Shown here: piece after piece, positions 8,140 through 14,839 of the stretch | How the letters are laid out: each line of letters begins with the position of its first letter | How positions within the stretch are numbered: position 1 is the stretch's first letter | Made by a program: the position numbers and the translations under genes | Origin: an uncultured Lachnospiraceae bacterium | GTDB taxonomy: Bacteria; Bacillota; Clostridia; Lachnospirales; Lachnospiraceae | Length of the DNA: 64,000 nucleotides | Direction: 5' to 3' | Assembly (NCBI GenBank): GCA_947564735.1 | Contig: CANOEC010000022.1 | Span: 1 to 64,000, forward strand | The notes under the pieces: model-generated | Databases searched by the model: none | Told to the model about the DNA's origin: nothing | What the model saw: only the letters and a program-made list of their open reading frames with translations

Positions 8140-8631
8140 CTATACCGGTTGTAACTCCCTCTCCCTCTCTTTCTCCAACTTCAATACCTGCACCAGAGCA
8201 AGCCCGGAATACAGTGCAATTTTTTCCATTGGTAAATCCCCGTCTTCTATCATTCGCATTGCTGAATCTATTTTCTCCTGTTCAGCACCCTGTTCTAAAC
8301 CCTGTTCTAAACCCTGTTCTAAGCCCCGCTCTAAGCCCTGTTCATATTTTTCCTGATAGTTCATCTGTAAAGTCATATAATCCAACCTCCACTTCTCATT
8401 CCTTCTGACTTCCTGTACTGCCTCGTCTAATTCTCTGGTGAAATCGTCCTCCGGCTCTTATAACGAAACTGCGTTTCAAGTCTTTATAATTATCTCCCTT
8501 TTCCAAGATATTCAAATCAATCATTCCCTGATAATACCTTGTTCTCTTAGGAAGGTTCCTGTTCGATGTGGTCTGCATTTCAACAAAGGCTTTCTCTCCA
8601 AATGCATTATCACCGCTGTTGTCATTACTTC
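8140..8631 (-). pseudogene. Rpn/PD-(D/E)XK nuclease-transposase family remnant
   Basis: Two reading frames carry pieces of one protein family. The upstream piece reads EKAFVEMQTTSNRNLPKRTR followed by YYQGMIDLNILEKG and KRSFVI, typical of the nuclease core of Rpn-like (PF12784-type) proteins. A different frame then continues as EPEDDFTRELDEAVQEVRRN, EKWRLDYMTLQMNYQEKYEQ and a GLEQG repeat tail, which is the usual C-terminus. The junction is at about 8450-8460. The normal connecting segment of roughly 100 residues is missing, and the N-terminus is cut by the adjacent deacylase-like gene. This is a deletion with a frameshift rather than a single sequencing slip. An 81-aa C-terminal frame (8140-8385) could still be read but is unlikely to be functional. 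Confidence 0.75.
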
Positions 8632-9564
8632 CTATTCATTTCTCACTACCAGTTTAAATACTGCCGTATTGGAATAAGTCAGCGGTTCGCTGTGCATAAA
8701 AAACACGATACCCTCTACCGGCGCCGTTAGTTCATCTATGACTTCCCCCTCAAACGAATCATAGATATAAGCCAGTTTCTGACCTTTGCTGACCTCATCC
8801 CCCACTCTTACTGTCGGTTCAAACAGTCCTGATCTGTTTGTCCTGACAGAAACCATATCCGTGTCTTTCACCACCTGTGATATATACCCGTCATGGCTAT
8901 GATACTCCACAATGCCCTGCTTGTTCAAAAAATTCAAGATTCCGCGCATCGCCTCCCCGGCACTTTTCTTATCCACCCTCGTCGTCGTTGTAGTGTAGAT
9001 GCTGAATGCCTGTGTCTCCCAAATCTGCCAGTTATAATTCAGTGTCGTGGTGTCATAGGGCCGCACCTTTCTAATCACCACATAAGGCATTCCGAATTGT
9101 CTGGCAAGACCGGTATCCTCAAATCCCGTCCCCATCATACGCACATGGGGCATAAACTCTCCCGGCATATAAAATGAAGTAAACTGGATGCCAAACTGAT
9201 ACTCCGATATCACCGCAAAAACTCCTTCCGCAATCCTCTGTGTGGTCTCGCCCTCGGAATATCCGGGAAACATCCTGTTAATATCCGTATTATCTACAGA
9301 CCAAAAACGCTTCTGTGTATTCATGGAATACGGATTGACACAGGGGATTACCAAAATCTTTTTCCCTGACACAAGCTTTCCATCCTGCTCCATCTGTTTC
9401 AGTTTCCTTACCATCTGGGAACAGCAGTAAAGCTGCTGTATCTCGTTTCCGCGCATACTCCCCACGATACAGACAGCCTTTTCCCCTTCTCCAAATTCAT
9501 AACCATTTACCCTGAAATCATCCCTGTAAAGCCCTTTTATCTCATAAACTGTTACTTTCCGCAT
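8632..9564 (-). CDS. AspA/AstE-type deacylase paralogue, predicted zinc-less
   Basis: A 310-aa protein of the succinylglutamate desuccinylase/aspartoacylase (M14-like) family. The fold markers are present: VCIVGSMRGNE (34-41), a NPYSMNTQKRFW segment, DNTDINRMFPG and a C-terminal lipoyl-like beta barrel with VRVGDEVSKGQKLAYIYD. The zinc site is not: the usual HGxE is RGNE (R38, E41), and the region aligning with DIHASN of its neighbour has no His (YQFGIQFTSF). It starts 16 bases after the neighbouring paralogue with a strong GAGGTGGAG ribosome site. It is probably a partner, binding protein or regulator of the active paralogue, unless it uses unconventional chemistry. Last gene of the ATP-grasp/alpha-E/transglutaminase operon. 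Confidence 0.82.
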   Translation of the reverse strand: MRKVTVYEIKGLYRDDFRVNGYEFGEGEKAVCIVGSMRGNEIQQLYCCSQMVRKLKQMEQDGKLVSGKKILVIPCVNPYSMNTQKRFWSVDNTDINRMFPGYSEGETTQRIAEGVFAVISEYQFGIQFTSFYMPGEFMPHVRMMGTGFEDTGLARQFGMPYVVIRKVRPYDTTTLNYNWQIWETQAFSIYTTTTTRVDKKSAGEAMRGILNFLNKQGIVEYHSHDGYISQVVKDTDMVSVRTNRSGLFEPTVRVGDEVSKGQKLAYIYDSFEGEVIDELTAPVEGIVFFMHSEPLTYSNTAVFKLVVRNE

Positions 9565-9580
9565 TTTCTCTCCACCTCAA

Positions 9581-10522
9581 TTATTCCAGTTTCTTACGAA
9601 GAAGCCTGCCAACCAGAGAACCTTCATCCACGACTGGATATTCCCTGATTGTAAATAGGATTCCGTCCACAGGGGAAGTCACCTCGTCCAGCACCTCGCC
9701 CGATAAGGGATGGATGATACGCCCGATACGTTCCCCTTTCCTTAATCTTTCCCAATGTCTTACATCGGGCAGGAATACGCCTCCCACAGAAGCATTCAAA
9801 TAGACCACATCTTCCGGGTCATCCGATAAGATCGGAGCCCTCACAGGCGTCACATTCCCTGTCCATATGCCAAGTTTCTCCATCAGATGAAAGATCCCAT
9901 CCACCATCTGGTCTCCGTATGCCTTTGTGATACGCATGCCAACACCCATCTCCACCACCAGCACGGGCGTCCCTATGCTGTTTAAGCTGTGGGCAAATGT
10001 GGCTTCCAGCACTGTGCTGGCTCCATGAACCCAGATAAAATCCACATTGGATTCCATCGCCAGTGGAACCAGCTTCTCCCGATGCAGTTCGTTGATACGA
10101 ATCTGCGGTATCTCTGTCAGAAAAATATTGCTGGCATGAATATCCAACACCAAGTCCGATCCGGTTATATCCTGAATAATCTCTGAAGCCAGATACTCCG
10201 TCATATTGCCATCCCTGTTCCCCGGAAAAAGCCGGTTCATATCCAAGTCAAAAGCTGGAATACCTCTCGTAATCGAATCTATCCCTAACGGATTCAGCGC
10301 CGGATAAATATCAACAATTCCGGCAAGCTTCTCTTCCTGCTGTCTGATGCGGCGAAGTAATTCAAAGCAAACATACTGTCCTTCCAGTTCATCCCCATGG
10401 ATGCCTGTAACAATACTGATGCGTTTTACACCCTCCGTCAGATGTTCTGCTTCTATCCGGTTCTTTTGAATCTTAAATTTCTCACCTACCGGCAGCTCCA
10501 TTGAAGCCACTGTTTTTATCAT
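9581..10522 (-). CDS. AspA/AstE-type zinc deacylase or carboxypeptidase
   Basis: A 313-aa succinylglutamate desuccinylase/aspartoacylase family enzyme. The zinc ligands are intact: TGIHGDELEG gives H42 and E45, and LVLDIHASN gives H129. NPLGIDSITRG and DLDMNRLFPGN are the conserved substrate-side segments. The C-terminal barrel (about 220-313) has VRHWERLRKGERIGRIIHPL. Family members cleave amides such as N-acyl amino acids or peptide-like bonds; the substrate here is unknown. It follows the transglutaminase gene by 57 bases and precedes its zinc-less paralogue by 16. In this operon it could hydrolyse the amide product made by the ATP-grasp ligase or release a modifying group (inference). Confidence 0.87.
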   Translation of the reverse strand: MIKTVASMELPVGEKFKIQKNRIEAEHLTEGVKRISIVTGIHGDELEGQYVCFELLRRIRQQEEKLAGIVDIYPALNPLGIDSITRGIPAFDLDMNRLFPGNRDGNMTEYLASEIIQDITGSDLVLDIHASNIFLTEIPQIRINELHREKLVPLAMESNVDFIWVHGASTVLEATFAHSLNSIGTPVLVVEMGVGMRITKAYGDQMVDGIFHLMEKLGIWTGNVTPVRAPILSDDPEDVVYLNASVGGVFLPDVRHWERLRKGERIGRIIHPLSGEVLDEVTSPVDGILFTIREYPVVDEGSLVGRLLRKKLE

Positions 10523-10579
10523 TTCCTTTTCCCTGTAACAGTCCTGTCAACTGTTATTTCCCTTCCTATTTTGAAAAAA

Positions 10580-11371
10580 TTAAAAATCGGTCTCTGTAAC
10601 AGACACGCGCACTGTCTGCATCTGGTTTCCGCCTCCGTGCATGATGCCACGGTTAATCAGACAGTCCGCCGCATCCCTACCACAGCCTATCCGAATATAA
10701 TCATCCCCCGCGGGAGCATTATTGGTCGGATCCAGCCCATACCATTTTCCTTCGTGGCACAGTTCCACCCATGCATGGCTTGCGCCTTCCCCAATCATCA
10801 TCCCTGTCACATACCGTGCAGGGATGCCTTCCCGATGAAGCAGGGCTATCATAATGTGCGCATAGTCCTGACAGACGCCCCTGCCTAGTTTCCATGCCTG
10901 CTCCGCTGTTGTATCCATACCGGTACAGCCTTTTTCATATGCAAAATCATGATACAGCCTGTTCATCAGATAAATGCCTTTTTCGTAGTTACCCGCCGGC
11001 AAACTAGTTTTCAATCCCACATGATAAGCATAAAGAGCCTCGCCTGCCACGTTCAACCCATGCGGATGGCGGAAAACGGCAGTCATCTTTCCATCATCTT
11101 CTTTCTCCCATCCGGCAAGCCCCGTCCTGACATCCCCAGTAATATGGAACTGAAATGTATCATGTGGAATGGTATTCTCTCCATATATCTGCCTATTTCC
11201 AAAAGAATCCTCACCTGTGCTGTAGGTTACGGCTGGATACAGTTCTATAGATGTACTCTCCACTTCCTGACGCAACGTTTTCATAGGAAAACACTTAATC
11301 GTAAAATGACAGACAGATACTACTTCTGAATATGCAATCTGCATACAATAATCAAAATGTAATTTTTTCAT
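10580..11371 (-). CDS. Transglutaminase-like cysteine peptidase/amidase
   Basis: A 263-aa cytosolic transglutaminase-fold protein. The N-terminal beta domain (about 1-100) matches the bacterial transglutaminase-like N-terminal domain. The catalytic triad is visible as C167 (GRGVCQDYAH), H199 (EGASHAWVEL) and D214 (YGLDPTNN). Such proteins usually act as peptidases or amidases, or catalyse transamidation. Linkage with circularly permuted ATP-grasp and alpha-E genes is a recognised conserved neighbourhood proposed to make and process an unknown peptide or amide. AAGGGG lies before the ATG. Gap of 16 bases from the alpha-E gene. Confidence 0.88.
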   Translation of the reverse strand: MKKLHFDYCMQIAYSEVVSVCHFTIKCFPMKTLRQEVESTSIELYPAVTYSTGEDSFGNRQIYGENTIPHDTFQFHITGDVRTGLAGWEKEDDGKMTAVFRHPHGLNVAGEALYAYHVGLKTSLPAGNYEKGIYLMNRLYHDFAYEKGCTGMDTTAEQAWKLGRGVCQDYAHIMIALLHREGIPARYVTGMMIGEGASHAWVELCHEGKWYGLDPTNNAPAGDDYIRIGCGRDAADCLINRGIMHGGGNQMQTVRVSVTETDF

Positions 11372-11387
11372 ATAACGCCCCTTGCTA

Positions 11388-12050
11388 TTACAGAATTGCC
11401 TCTACCTCGTTTACAATTCCATAATAATCCACTTCCGGCTCCTCCACAAGGGCTTTTATTCGCGCAAGCTTTTCTGCGTTATATTCCAGTCCGCTGCGCT
11501 CTATGCGCGGAATCATGCGGTGAACCTCACGCACAAGGACTTTCTTCTCTGTCCCCAGCCTTGCAAACATATCTACCCTCTCGATTCGTTTCCCAGCCTT
11601 TATAATATTGCGAATCTGCTCCGAATCAATCTGGTCATCTGCAATCCCCCAAAATGCCAGCAGGTTATCTATCACCCTCTGCATCTCAATCAGCGGAGCA
11701 TTGCTCATTTCAGCCTTATTCATGGCATAGATGGCAAGCTGTATGTACGAAAGCGTTTCTGACCCTATACTCTCCCGAAGGACAATGGCATTATCGTATG
11801 CCCTGTTCAGATTGCTGATAATAGAATCCGGATTTTCTGCATCGAATGGATATTTTCTTTGAAATACATCCTTGTTCCCATAAATATCCGGGATATCCAC
11901 CATCCTGCAGAATTCCTGATAAGAGTCAAGCATTTCATCAATCATAATATCATATTTCTGAAAGTAAAAACGTATCGTGGTATAAACCCTCTCCGTGTAC
12001 CTTCCCAACCAGTATAGTCTGTCCGCCTGTTCTACTGAGATAATACCCAT
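11388..12050 (-). CDS. Alpha-E domain protein (formerly DUF403)
   Basis: A 220-aa all-alpha protein with the alpha-E family signature near the N-terminus: YWLGRYTERVYTTIRFY, containing the conserved Glu-Arg pair. Other helices include YDNAIVLRESIGSETLSYIQ and the C-terminal VEAIL. No catalytic function is established; the family is found almost exclusively beside circularly permuted ATP-grasp and transglutaminase-like genes. Its start overlaps the end of the ATP-grasp gene by 19 bases and is preceded by AAGGACAC, a sign of translational coupling and probably a stoichiometric complex (inference). Confidence 0.9.
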   Translation of the reverse strand: MGIISVEQADRLYWLGRYTERVYTTIRFYFQKYDIMIDEMLDSYQEFCRMVDIPDIYGNKDVFQRKYPFDAENPDSIISNLNRAYDNAIVLRESIGSETLSYIQLAIYAMNKAEMSNAPLIEMQRVIDNLLAFWGIADDQIDSEQIRNIIKAGKRIERVDMFARLGTEKKVLVREVHRMIPRIERSGLEYNAEKLARIKALVEEPEVDYYGIVNEVEAIL

Positions 12051-13351
12051 GTGTCCTTAAAACCTCCTCCCTGTGATGAGTTAACGATAAAGGAATCCGA
12101 ATTTCTGGAAAACCGCGTCAGCCCGCTCTTCCAGACTAGAGGTTCATCCGCCATCAGCACAAATGCCCGCAGATCAGCCTTTCTGGGAACCCTGCCGCCC
12201 TCCTCCTGAATGTCTAGATCTTGGAAATCTATTACCTCCTGTGCAATAAATCTCCTTGGCTCCTTTTTCAATAGCACGATAAAGGCTTCCCTTTGCTCCC
12301 TTGTCATGGCGTCTCCAAATACCACCCCATAACCGCCTGCCTCCGCCACATCCTTGAGTACCAGATTGTCGAAATGCTCCAGCACATACGCCATATCTTC
12401 CTTATAAAACGGAAGATATGTTGGCGCATTGGAAAGAACCGGCTCCTCTCCAAGATAATACTTAATCATCTTAGGTGCAAAATAATAAATGCCCTTGTCA
12501 TCCGCCACACCGTTACCCGGTGCATTCAAAAGCGCCACGTTTCCTTTACGAAAGACATCGAAAATATGGGGAATGCCAATCAGGGACTGCGGATTGAAAT
12601 TCATCGGGTCAAGATACTCATCCGATATGCGGCGGTATACGGCACCTACACGCTCTTTTTTCCCATTTACCGCCACATAGTACAATTTGTCATCCTCTAC
12701 CTTAAGCTCTGATCCATTTACCAGATGTGCTCCGGTTCTCTCCGCCAGATAAGAATGCTCAAAATAAGCCGCATTATAACGTCCCGGCGTAAGGATGACC
12801 GTATGCCCTCCCACACTCACATGGTCAAAGGTTTGCCGCAGGAGCTGTGCGTAATTCCTGTTGTCCTCCAAATGATTGTCATGGAAAGTTTCCGGCGAGC
12901 TTCTCCGGCATAATTCTCTTGCAATCATTGGATAAGAAGCGCCTGATGGGACACGCAGATTGTCCTCAAGGATATACCAGTTTCCATCCTTCCCCTTGAC
13001 CAAATCAATGCCGGATATATGGGAGTAAATCCCTTTCGGCGGCAAAATTCCCTCACATTCTGCAAGATACCCACTGGATGCAAAGATAAAATCTTCCGGG
13101 ACAACGCCATCCTTCACAATTTTCTTATCGCTGTATATGTCTTTGATAAACAGATTCAACGCCGTCACACGCTGCTTCAGTCCGCGTTCCAGATAAAGGA
13201 ACTCTTCATACTCAATCACTCTGGGAATCGCGTCGAAAGGGAAGAGCTGTTCCTTAAAAGTATTGTTCTTATAAATCCCAAACCGCACCCCGTAACGCGC
13301 CAGCAACTCATTTACCGTATCCGTGTGCTGTAACAATTCCAACTGCCGCAT
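12032..13351 (-). CDS. Circularly permuted ATP-grasp type 2 amidoligase
   Basis: A 439-aa member of the circularly permuted ATP-grasp type 2 family, predicted to join a carboxylate and an amine using ATP. Recognisable segments are LEDNLRVPSGASYPMIAREL (around 150), VILTPGRYNAAYFEHSYLAE, NAPGNGVADDKGIYYFAPKM, LKDVAEAGGYGVVFGDAM and AQEVIDFQDLDIQ. I chose the ATG at 13351 because GGAGGAG lies seven bases before it; an upstream in-frame ATG at 13375 lacks a site. It is the first gene of the five-gene operon, 102 bases after a consensus promoter with an intervening hairpin. Substrate and product are unknown, although related clusters have been proposed to form peptide tags or novel small peptides. 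Confidence 0.9.
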   Translation of the reverse strand: MRQLELLQHTDTVNELLARYGVRFGIYKNNTFKEQLFPFDAIPRVIEYEEFLYLERGLKQRVTALNLFIKDIYSDKKIVKDGVVPEDFIFASSGYLAECEGILPPKGIYSHISGIDLVKGKDGNWYILEDNLRVPSGASYPMIARELCRRSSPETFHDNHLEDNRNYAQLLRQTFDHVSVGGHTVILTPGRYNAAYFEHSYLAERTGAHLVNGSELKVEDDKLYYVAVNGKKERVGAVYRRISDEYLDPMNFNPQSLIGIPHIFDVFRKGNVALLNAPGNGVADDKGIYYFAPKMIKYYLGEEPVLSNAPTYLPFYKEDMAYVLEHFDNLVLKDVAEAGGYGVVFGDAMTREQREAFIVLLKKEPRRFIAQEVIDFQDLDIQEEGGRVPRKADLRAFVLMADEPLVWKSGLTRFSRNSDSFIVNSSQGGGFKDTWVLSQ

Positions 13352-13386
13352 AAATTCTCCTCCTACGTTTTGCATCCAAATAAAAT

Positions 13387-13420
13387 AGGCGTCTCACCAG
13401 TTTTCATCTGGGAAACGCCT
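13387..13420 (-). promoter_or_regulatory. Leader hairpin before the ATP-grasp operon (attenuator-like)
   Basis: On the minus strand AGGCGTTTC pairs with GAGACGCCT (nine pairs, one G-U), an inner CCAG/CTGG extends it, and ATTTTATTT follows. It lies between the promoter and the start codon, ending about 35 bases before the ATG, so it may halt or stabilise the operon transcript. The U-tract is imperfect. It could alternatively terminate readthrough from the RelA-type gene. Confidence 0.5.
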
Positions 13421-13452
13421 TTGTTTCATCTATCGCTCATCTATCGAATAAT

Positions 13453-13481
13453 AGTATACGTGAATACAAAACGAATGTCAA
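13453..13481 (-). promoter_or_regulatory. Consensus promoter of the ATP-grasp operon
   Basis: On the minus strand TTGACA, a 17-base spacer and TATACT. It is one of the two best promoters in the window. The transcript would start near 13446, giving a leader of about 95 bases. A near-perfect direct repeat of GCGATAGATGA (13427-13449) follows the -10 box. Confidence 0.75.
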
Positions 13482-13587: not shown

Positions 13588-14574
13588 TCAGTCCATATCA
13601 TTTTGAAATCTTGAAAGATGTTCAAACGGTAAAATCTGCCTTCCGCGAAACAGCCCACACCCATCATTTACCCTGTAATTATCTATTGCCGTAAACATAT
13701 TCACGTCAATCTCAGACAGCTTCAAGTTCTGGAGCTTCTGCTCCCTTTCGTATGCCTCATCAAAATATATACATTCGCCGACAGGTATTTCCTCCCGCCT
13801 TGCTCTTTCCGCTTCCTGTATCTTCTCATAGCCGAAATGGTTTGCATCGCCAATCTCCGCATGGTCGTCCATATCCTTTGTCCTTAACTGGATCTCCGTA
13901 TAACATCTGGCAGAATTATCATACAGGGTAATATGCAGAGACTGGTAACCTAAAGGCCGACTGTTGACAATATAATCCCTGTAATACGGTCTTACCTCTT
14001 CCATTAACATATCGGAATATCCGGTTGTCGAAATTCCTGCCAGTTCAACAGTAAAACCTCTTTCTTCAAAAAATTCCGGAATCATATTGGCAATCTCATA
14101 AAGATACTTGAGTTCCGTCTGCTCCCTTATTTCATCAGAAGCAATATTACACTTTGGTAAAGATATGACAATTCTGTATGCAATGATATCCCGTAGCCTC
14201 AAAAGCTGGTTTTTTATATCCGTATCTGAGGGAAACGCTTTGTTAGCCGTGTAGTAATCATATATAAATTCAACAATATAGCCATTTATCTTTTTTTCCG
14301 TCCTAATCAGCGATTTTATTCTCCCCTTAAAGGTAAAAGCAAGAAACGGATATTGTTTGGTCATATAAATATACAATTCTTTAATTTTCTGTGATTGCAA
14401 TGTCAGGAAATTATTATGTAAAAGAATTTCCGTCATCTGTATCAGTACATTGCAATGGGCAATATCAACTGTATTGTGGGACTTAATCGCATTGTTCCTT
14501 AAATCATCCGTATATTGGTTTAAGATTTTTAATACAGTATCCCCTGAATAAAGATAATCATTTAAACTTATCAT
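13588..14574 (-). CDS. Single-domain RelA/SpoT-type (p)ppGpp synthetase-like protein
   Basis: I start this gene at the ATG at 14574 (328 aa) because GGGAGG lies nine bases before it; a longer open frame reaches 14733 but its first 53 codons are shadows of older genes. The protein has an alpha-helical N-terminus and a nucleotidyltransferase domain of the RelA/SpoT type: GRIKS and RTEKK (about 84-96), RDIIAYRI (about 128), YRDYIV with GYQSLH (about 198-214) and EIQLRTKDMDDHAEIGDANH (about 227-246). There is no HD hydrolase, TGS or ACT domain, so it is a stand-alone alarmone-type synthetase or a toxin-type relative (toxSAS). No intact cognate antitoxin lies next to it. Product (ppGpp, pppGpp, ppApp or tRNA pyrophosphorylation) cannot be predicted. 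Confidence 0.78.
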   Translation of the reverse strand: MISLNDYLYSGDTVLKILNQYTDDLRNNAIKSHNTVDIAHCNVLIQMTEILLHNNFLTLQSQKIKELYIYMTKQYPFLAFTFKGRIKSLIRTEKKINGYIVEFIYDYYTANKAFPSDTDIKNQLLRLRDIIAYRIVISLPKCNIASDEIREQTELKYLYEIANMIPEFFEERGFTVELAGISTTGYSDMLMEEVRPYYRDYIVNSRPLGYQSLHITLYDNSARCYTEIQLRTKDMDDHAEIGDANHFGYEKIQEAERARREEIPVGECIYFDEAYEREQKLQNLKLSEIDVNMFTAIDNYRVNDGCGLFRGRQILPFEHLSRFQNDMD

Positions 14575-14593
14575 CAGCACATGCCTCCCCATT

Positions 14594-14700
14594 TTATCTC
14601 TTTTCTCTGCATACACGCACAAAAACTTGAAATATTCTCCGACCGTTTCCATCTGTCTGATAAGAAAACTCTGGGTGCCATTGTACTGCCCACACAAAGC
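14594..14700 (-). pseudogene. C-terminal remnant of a class I amidotransferase-like peptidase C26
   Basis: The frame reads FVWAVQWHPEFSYQTDGNGR followed by RIFQVFVRVCREKR and a stop. This is the characteristic C-terminus (Q-W-H-P-E-F, catalytic His/Glu region) of gamma-glutamyl-GABA hydrolase (PuuD)-like proteins. The rest of the gene is absent; it joins directly to a Phd-type fragment upstream. Its stop is 17 bases before the RelA-type start, so the intact gene was probably in an operon with it. Confidence 0.65.
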
Positions 14701-14839
14701 TTTTAAATACATATCGAGACTGAGTCTCACCATTGCACCCTATCCATTTTTGGTAAGATATACAGGCTCCCCCATTAACAATCTTCTCAATATCAAGAAA
14801 CTTATTTCTAAGATCTGAAACAGGTCGGGTCTGAATCAT
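14701..14839 (-). pseudogene. Phd/YefM-type antitoxin remnant
   Basis: From the ATG at 14839 the frame gives MIQTRPVSDLRNKFLDIEKI, a typical Phd/YefM N-terminus. The expected continuation EPVYLTKNG is found one frame away and runs into a TAG before GAMVRLSLDMYLKAL. A frameshift plus an in-frame stop, and fusion to the C26 fragment, mark it as dead. A promoter still lies upstream. Confidence 0.65.

Follow-up and report, generated by a model that had tools for sequence, protein, structure and literature searches.

Anbu-operon trio genes followed by two AspA/AstE-type deacylases and preceded by a candidate nitrogen-type RNA leader in a Lachnospiraceae bacterium

The genes for a circularly permuted ATP-grasp ligase, an alpha-E protein and a transglutaminase-like protein form the core of the Anbu operon (PMC5666114, PMC6376114), and three reports connect this trio, or Anbu itself, to nitrogen. 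Indeed, Anbu is up in nitrogen-limited Pseudomonas putida and unchanged in other conditions (PMC5666114), the trio cluster of Burkholderia cenocepacia drops 6.0 to 9.4-fold when ntrC is mutated and is thus NtrC-activated (PMC5491218), and in marine metagenomes the domains of the trio are associated with urea metabolism (PMC3597751). No physiological substrate of this widespread trio is reported in the accessible text of PMC5666114, PMC6376114 or the other papers cited here. We analysed a stretch of 64,000 nucleotides (hereafter, the window; all positions refer to it) from contig 22 of the 4.52 Mb assembly of an uncultured Lachnospiraceae bacterium (GCA_947564735.1), which carries five adjacent minus-strand open reading frames (ORFs), head to tail from 13351 to 8632: the trio, in the order given, and two AspA/AstE-type proteins, here called AstE1 and AstE2. 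We propose, with a probability of about 0.45, that this operon would be a nitrogen-limitation pathway making and cutting amide bonds, its candidate substrate class being a guess. The proposal is made because of an RNA leader before the operon, the setting of AstE pairs that occur without the trio, the conserved residues, and the three reports above.

The locus resembles the Anbu operon in its first three genes, in their order and in the link to nitrogen limitation (PMC5666114, PMC6376114, PMC5491218). It differs in that the two AspA/AstE-type proteins fill the slot of Anbu, the alpha-E protein is shortened, and an RNA leader is found instead of NtrC/sigma-54. The operon encodes no Anbu, which is a proteasome-fold N-terminal nucleophile hydrolase, and a genome-wide search with PF00227 gave no match; we therefore set the locus apart from Anbu operons, as their trio joined to a different hydrolase. 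A first-pass annotation of the window had proposed an undescribed system, which holds in part: the trio is known, and what appears to be new is the AspA/AstE pair in the peptidase slot together with the nitrogen-type leader. No report of the variant or of its leader was found in the literature searched, which is no proof of absence. A further likeness is to RloABC/RimBK of Pseudomonas, where, in the text available of PMC12239564, an ATP-grasp enzyme goes with a protease and Rlo also has an inactive transglutaminase domain; the ATP-grasp, the aspartic protease and the membrane-bound transglutaminase belong to other families, and the likeness is an analogy only. As far as its accessible text goes, PMC12096838 concerns another protein.

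The gene identities given by the first-pass annotation stand, as all five proteins score over their Pfam cut-offs (Table 1), with the correction that the alpha-E protein is of a short form. The gaps that it gave, from gene 1 to gene 5, were confirmed by the ORF calls (-19, 16, 57 and 16 bases). The ATP-grasp ligase matches the solved relative 3n6x with an E value of 8.6e-111; the label of glutathionylspermidine synthetase on that structure is the depositors' name only. The start at 13351 is an ATG behind AGGAGGAG, and the first in-frame ATG is at 13375. The alpha-E protein (220 aa) is short, covering positions 6-165 of the 294 of the profile, and its two Glu-Arg pairs (E20 R21 and E157 R158) are retained in 69/69 sequences, as is the triad Cys167-His199-Asp214 of the transglutaminase-like protein in 75/75.

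Table 1. Coordinates of the operon genes and of the elements before them
Feature	Position	Strand	Support
Circularly permuted ATP-grasp ligase	12032..13351	-	PF14403 (CP_ATPgrasp_2), 445.7 bits, over cut-off
Short alpha-E	11388..12050	-	PF04168, 86.1 bits, over cut-off
Transglutaminase-like	10580..11371	-	PF01841 (Transglut_core), 63.6 bits, over cut-off
AstE1, AspA/AstE-type deacylase	9581..10522	-	PF24827 (AstE_AspA_cat), 85.1 bits, over cut-off
AstE2, zinc-less AspA/AstE paralogue	8632..9564	-	PF24827, 43.1 bits, over cut-off
Promoter-like site TTGACA-17-TATACT	13453..13481	-	11/12 consensus matches
Leader element common to nitrogen genes	13381..13429	-	Model R3, E 7.4e-5 in 64 kb; next match 0.37
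Hexaloop hairpin GAAAC[AAAGGC]GTTTC, ANTAR-type (A1, G4)	13412..13427	-	-2.5 kcal/mol folded alone
Competing terminator-like hairpin, then interrupted T run	13387..13420	-	-19.6 kcal/mol

As judged from gene order, the five genes are one conserved unit. AstE2 was compared with a genome collection, and the best 80 of 338 relatives were analysed: 69 of these 80 loci have the complete set of five, with order and strand unchanged (three of the 69 with one gene split into two ORFs), and the other 11 end at a contig edge inside the operon. Cultured carriers among these loci are Butyrivibrio sp. AC2005 and AE3009 (L050 and L054). The overlap of -19 between genes 1 and 2 is conserved in 64/66 loci. 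Furthermore, alpha-E was searched in overlapping samples of the order, the class and the phylum, with 13/196, 12/391 and 9/398 positive genomes, respectively. Not counting the window, 26 loci were positive, of which at least one (L094) is also among the 80. The five genes stand in order at 20 of the 26, once with an additional ORF separating genes 3 and 4. Among the rest, the trio of two loci outside the class (L116 and L117) includes a full-length alpha-E and is joined by two AstE genes, that of three others (L114, L115 and L118) is without AstE, and L111 is cut by its contig, an AstE pair beginning another contig of the same genome. The co-occurrence of the five genes in relatives is thus beyond chance, and it supports the unit that the first-pass annotation had outlined, in which an enzyme making amide bonds is grouped with hydrolases of such bonds and with a damaged hydrolase.

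In the class sample, a strong AstE2 was found in 15/391 genomes, namely the 12 genomes with alpha-E and three others, the 16th match being weak. All 12 alpha-E genomes, the window's own among them, carry the strong AstE2 with AstE1. A chance placement of the deacylases beside the trio is therefore not what is seen inside the class (12/12), and the picture is mixed outside it, with AstE missing from 3/6 further trio loci. No flanking gene is common to most loci, the commonest cluster, ABC (ATP-binding cassette) ATPases, occurring in 18. As a separate observation, L111 (7185-10024) and L118 (7561-10891) carry apparent alpha-E/transglutaminase fusions adjoining the ATP-grasp gene; at 512 and 633 aa, these ORFs give matches to the model of the transglutaminase-like protein and also, in place, to the profile of alpha-E.

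The leader element lies between the promoter-like site and the ATP-grasp gene. Inside the operon, the minus strand shows only promoter-like sites with 9/12 matches, and the scan as a whole gave 25 sites vs 18.6 in shuffles. The terminator-like stem takes in the loop and right arm of the hexaloop hairpin, and the two forms would therefore be mutually exclusive; a simple terminator scan of the window did not list the terminator-like hairpin. An A at the first and a G at the fourth loop position are the ANTAR hexaloop rule (PMC3369931, as far as its text was available), and by its sequence the window leader has both, together with the exclusion of the terminator, its T run being interrupted. The ANTAR antiterminator leaders of eut, nas and ami described there are alike in the hexaloop overlapping a terminator-like stem and in their nitrogen genes, and here the ANTAR gene adjoins glnA; they are unlike in having two hexaloops against the one found here. 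A single hexaloop is given as the minimal ANTAR target in the accessible part of PMC8934654, according to which single-hexaloop sites need seeking. The literature searches for leaders of this kind in Clostridia turned up dual-hairpin work.

The first search for such leaders combined a pattern with a stem filter (a lower stem and at least 8 pairs), which builds in part of the conservation. Our claims on the leader rest on columns outside the pattern, on matches of the R1 model elsewhere, and on the R3 model. The pattern scan placed the hairpin 5' of the ATP-grasp gene in about 20 operons and 5' of operons with the AstE pair alone; in the nearest relatives it precedes ABC genes of the amino-acid-transport type that lead into the operon. 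Across 44 sites, the closing pair of the four-base hexaloop stem forms in 43, and stem pairs 2-4 form in 44, 43 and 39 sites vs 35.8, 35.7 and 27.2 in shuffles, the fifth pair not exceeding the shuffles. The fourth loop position is G in 44/44, and the first is A in 33/44 (10 G, 1 T). The upstream arm, which is not in the search pattern, covaries with the downstream arm, and the C before the loop, again a column outside the pattern, is invariant (27/27 sites). A promoter-like site with at least 9 matches stands directly upstream in 31/44 sites vs 7.3 in shuffles. A second hexaloop hairpin upstream occurs at 6/44 sites vs 5.2 in shuffles, and at none in the window; leaders with a recognisable promoter are mostly too short for one. 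Rfam gave no relevant match on the operon region or on 11 nitrogen loci.

The R1 model was trained on 27 leader sites of operons and solo pairs only, L069 and L142 being omitted as near copies. In the window's genome, it matches this operon (E 3.5e-6), the leader of an Amt-PII gene (2.3e-4) and that of glnA (0.021). In 18 other genomes, 58 rows reached E 0.02 or better, with at least one row in 17 genomes. We examined 32 of these rows; five more are operon or solo leaders already counted, and 21, being copies on the opposite strand, tandem copies or weaker rows, were left out. Core nitrogen genes, i.e. those for glutamine synthetase, Amt, PII, glutamate synthase, asparagine synthase, carbamoyl-phosphate synthase, NAD synthase and class II amidotransferase, follow 15 of the 32 sites. 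Six sites precede genes for amino-acid, peptide or amine transport or for aminotransferases, and three precede other enzymes (NAGidase, PPDK-like and citrate synthase). The genes after L199, L206, L208, L225 and eight non-fitting sites were named by eye. The best R1 matches in other genomes precede nitrogen genes.

As an observation in its own right, nine of these sites (L200, L203, L205, L207, L210, L212, L214, L223 and L225) are single-hexaloop ANTAR-type leaders of nitrogen genes without an Rfam match, the genes behind them being those for glutamine synthetase, Amt, glutamate synthase and asparagine synthase. The leaders are natural single-hexaloop ANTAR candidates of the kind that PMC8934654, in its accessible part, says to seek.

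The R3 model was trained on 16 of 17 nitrogen-gene leaders (L210 was omitted for its long loop), and it is only partly independent, as these leaders were found via R1. We scanned the 69 operon loci, 1.09 Mb in all, counting rows to E 0.1. A match lies no more than 700 bases before the ATP-grasp gene at 48 of them, 31 outside the R1 training, and at eight others it lies about 4-4.7 kb upstream, before same-strand ORFs leading into the operon. Only a single further sense match was found away from operon starts. On these counts, control of the operon by the leader appears to be common, not universal.

The AstE pair is also found alone. In three genomes (G093, G357 and G449), AstE1 and AstE2 are neighbours; alpha-E gave no match there, nor did any circularly permuted ATP-grasp exceed the cut-off. 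Among 59 genomes around G357, nine more of its genus have the pair, always as both genes; no trio was seen in the stretches read, no genome-wide search having been made. We read the context of 12 solo loci. A PucR-type regulator and a class III aminotransferase lie 5' of the pair in 7/12. Two of these aminotransferases were tested and pass TIGR00700, the model for gamma-aminobutyrate (GABA) transaminase, with 539.3 and 536.6 bits vs a cut-off of 506.65, and fail stricter PRK-derived models; a GABA transaminase is paired with the AstE genes at L121 and L135. A transporter of the polar-amino-acid type is beside the pair in five loci (one tested), and a PotD-type polyamine transporter in two (both binding proteins tested). 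The solo pair behind a GABA transaminase and polyamine or amino-acid uptake genes hints at a concrete class of compounds.

Then, we considered the residues of the two paralogues in a joint alignment of 113 AstE1 and 114 AstE2 sequences. In AstE1, the deacylase residues H42, E45, N96, R97, D127, H129 and E191 are intact in 113/113, and with them the zinc ligands H, E and H, the catalytic Glu and the Asn-Arg pair. The zinc roles are those of the solved relatives and of the family. In all 114 AstE2 sequences, the first zinc His is replaced by R, the second by T, A, S or V, and the catalytic Glu by Y or F, the first-motif Glu and the Asn and Arg being retained. In the window, R38, T129 and Y190 stand in these places, with E41, N96 and R97 retained, and an alignment to solved deacylases shows the same substitutions; the second deacylase is thus damaged as the first-pass annotation had stated. 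Judged by its conservation, AstE2 is a fixed, well-conserved gene and not one in decay. As a separate note, the AstE2 column of D127 (AstE1 numbering), beside the lost zinc His, holds His in 6/102 operonic AstE2 and Gln in the rest.

The predicted model of AstE2 has a mean predicted local distance difference test score of 84.7, residues 83-93 and 173-175 being poor. By template modelling (TM) score, it matches 3cdx (0.73), DoeB (0.69-0.73) and CphZ (8eip, 0.69-0.70). As modelled, AstE2 has the fold of the AspA/AstE/DoeB zinc deacylases without the zinc ligands or the catalytic Glu. DoeB, the N-acetyl-diaminobutyrate deacetylase of ectoine breakdown, is close in fold, and its family TIGR02994 is the best NCBIfam family for both AstE proteins; however, these reach 53.5 and 51.5 bits vs a cut-off of 402.7, and AstE2 is without the zinc site. 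CphZ, the cyanophycin dipeptide hydrolase, is alike in fold to AstE2 and acts on an amide-linked nitrogen compound, but its sequence match is weak and we saw no sign of cyanophycin here, no search for cyanophycin synthetase or cyanophycinase having been made.

In a quick tree of 58 rows with the root placed by hand, the zinc-less AstE2 sequences form a single clade (100), next to the second AstE of L116 and L117. The latter proteins have both zinc His and the first-motif Glu, with the catalytic Glu replaced by Met. Because the zinc-less clade adjoins proteins that retain the zinc site, the loss of zinc in AstE2 looks derived, given this hand-set root. The solo AstE2 form one clade (95) nested among the operonic AstE2, and, among AstE1, two operonic rows group with solo rows. 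We infer that AstE1 is a catalytic subunit and AstE2 its conserved non-catalytic partner, and a heteromer of the two is likely.

Nitrogen control of the operon is, in our estimation, highly probable. When nitrogen is short, the single ANTAR protein of the window's genome, whose gene is next to glnA, would keep the leader in its hexaloop form, the terminator would not form, and the five genes would be transcribed. The ATP-grasp enzyme, perhaps with alpha-E as a partner, would join a carboxylate to an amine or amino acid, and the transglutaminase-like cysteine enzyme would transfer or trim the product. AstE1, with AstE2 as a non-catalytic binding or structural partner, would hydrolyse a carboxylate-bearing N-acyl product, releasing an amino acid that could then be transaminated. 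That a single compound is made and removed in a cycle, as the first-pass annotation suggested, stays an inference. The likeliest use would be the scavenging of amine nitrogen, of the polyamine or omega-amino-acid type, via a transient amide, for which gamma-glutamylation pathways are a model; we hold this step a little more tentatively than the nitrogen-limitation pathway itself. The fullest version is rather unlikely to hold in every part: a nitrogen-starvation ATP-grasp/alpha-E ligase and a heteromeric deacylase, with a zinc subunit and an obligate zinc-less R-E-Y subunit, would make and consume an amide-linked amine carrier or reserve, via a single-hexaloop ANTAR antiterminator that runs a nitrogen regulon, both among Lachnospiraceae relatives and in other Clostridia. 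The nitrogen-gene leader on the five-gene operon would tie a long-mysterious enzyme group to nitrogen supply. Placing the trio among nitrogen-regulated genes of anaerobes, with a small-molecule-type deacylase replacing the proteasome relative, would also point to a starvation condition and to metabolites.

Several observations weigh against a nitrogen-limitation pathway. ANTAR is present in 41/43 genomes searched, and its presence is not discriminating; G388 has an R1 match before carAB and no ANTAR match. In the window's genome, 8/10 further distinct R1 sites (E to 10) precede no nitrogen gene by eye, and one of them, before recJ (E 8.1e-4), outscores that of glnA; in other genomes, 8/32 of the sites examined precede nothing fitting. 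The R3 match is absent in up to 13/69 of the AstE2-found operon loci, four of which begin no more than 132 bases from a contig end and one of which has a match just inside the called ORF. Among the alpha-E-found loci, the leader is near the gene in 11/25 and missing in 14/25, these 14 including all five of L114-L118, which lack the short form of alpha-E or do not belong to the class. The aminotransferase and uptake context is lacking in 5/12 solo loci. Furthermore, no specific binding among Anbu-operon proteins is reported in the text available of PMC6376114.

Among the alternatives, a nitrogen store survives best: the ATP-grasp would condense amino acids into an isopeptide reserve, and AstE1-AstE2 would cleave the dipeptide under shortage in a CphZ-like manner. 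The nitrogen-type leader agrees with it, as do the model of AstE2, which fits CphZ about as well as DoeB, and the weak sequence match of CphZ to both AstE1 and AstE2. However, CphZ scores much like DoeB and other deacylases, and hence the match picks no substrate, and a reserve is likelier made in nitrogen excess, whereas the leader groups with assimilation genes; we regard a store as unlikely. Protein tagging, in which the trio would attach a peptide tag and the deacylase pair remove it, has been proposed for this same trio in the Anbu operon (PMC6376114, PMC5666114, in the parts available), but the peptidase here is one of a family of deacylases that act on small molecules, an AstE pair next to aminotransferase and uptake genes functions, or is at least maintained, with no trio at hand, and the window's genome is without a proteasome-fold match, which makes tagging still more doubtful. 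Most improbable is a leader that is no more than an intrinsic terminator or a palindrome arisen by chance, with an operon outside nitrogen control: the non-fitting R1 sites, the stems preset in the first search and the seeding of R3 through R1 speak for it, but the invariant C, the covariation of the arms, the excess of upstream promoter-like sites and the nitrogen genes behind the best matches elsewhere speak against it, as does the R3 scan of 1.09 Mb, with its one stray sense match and one inside a called ORF start.

Some observations concern the surroundings of the operon. In the window, the product of the gene 5' of it (13588-14733) is 381 aa long and contains a RelA/SpoT region at residues 250-304 (PF04607), which scores far under the full-length family cut-offs. 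Directly 3' of the operon, at about 8300-8620, there are fragments which, by eye, resemble a broken Rpn-type nuclease gene. The operon lies between secDF-like and recJ-like genes in 4/89 operon loci (L021, L042, L044 and L048). The window's genome has a leader-like hairpin of 31.6 bits at a secDF/recJ junction without the operon (L158, G000:C4:144878-144919, minus strand); this junction looks as if the operon had moved, a plain terminator being the alternative.

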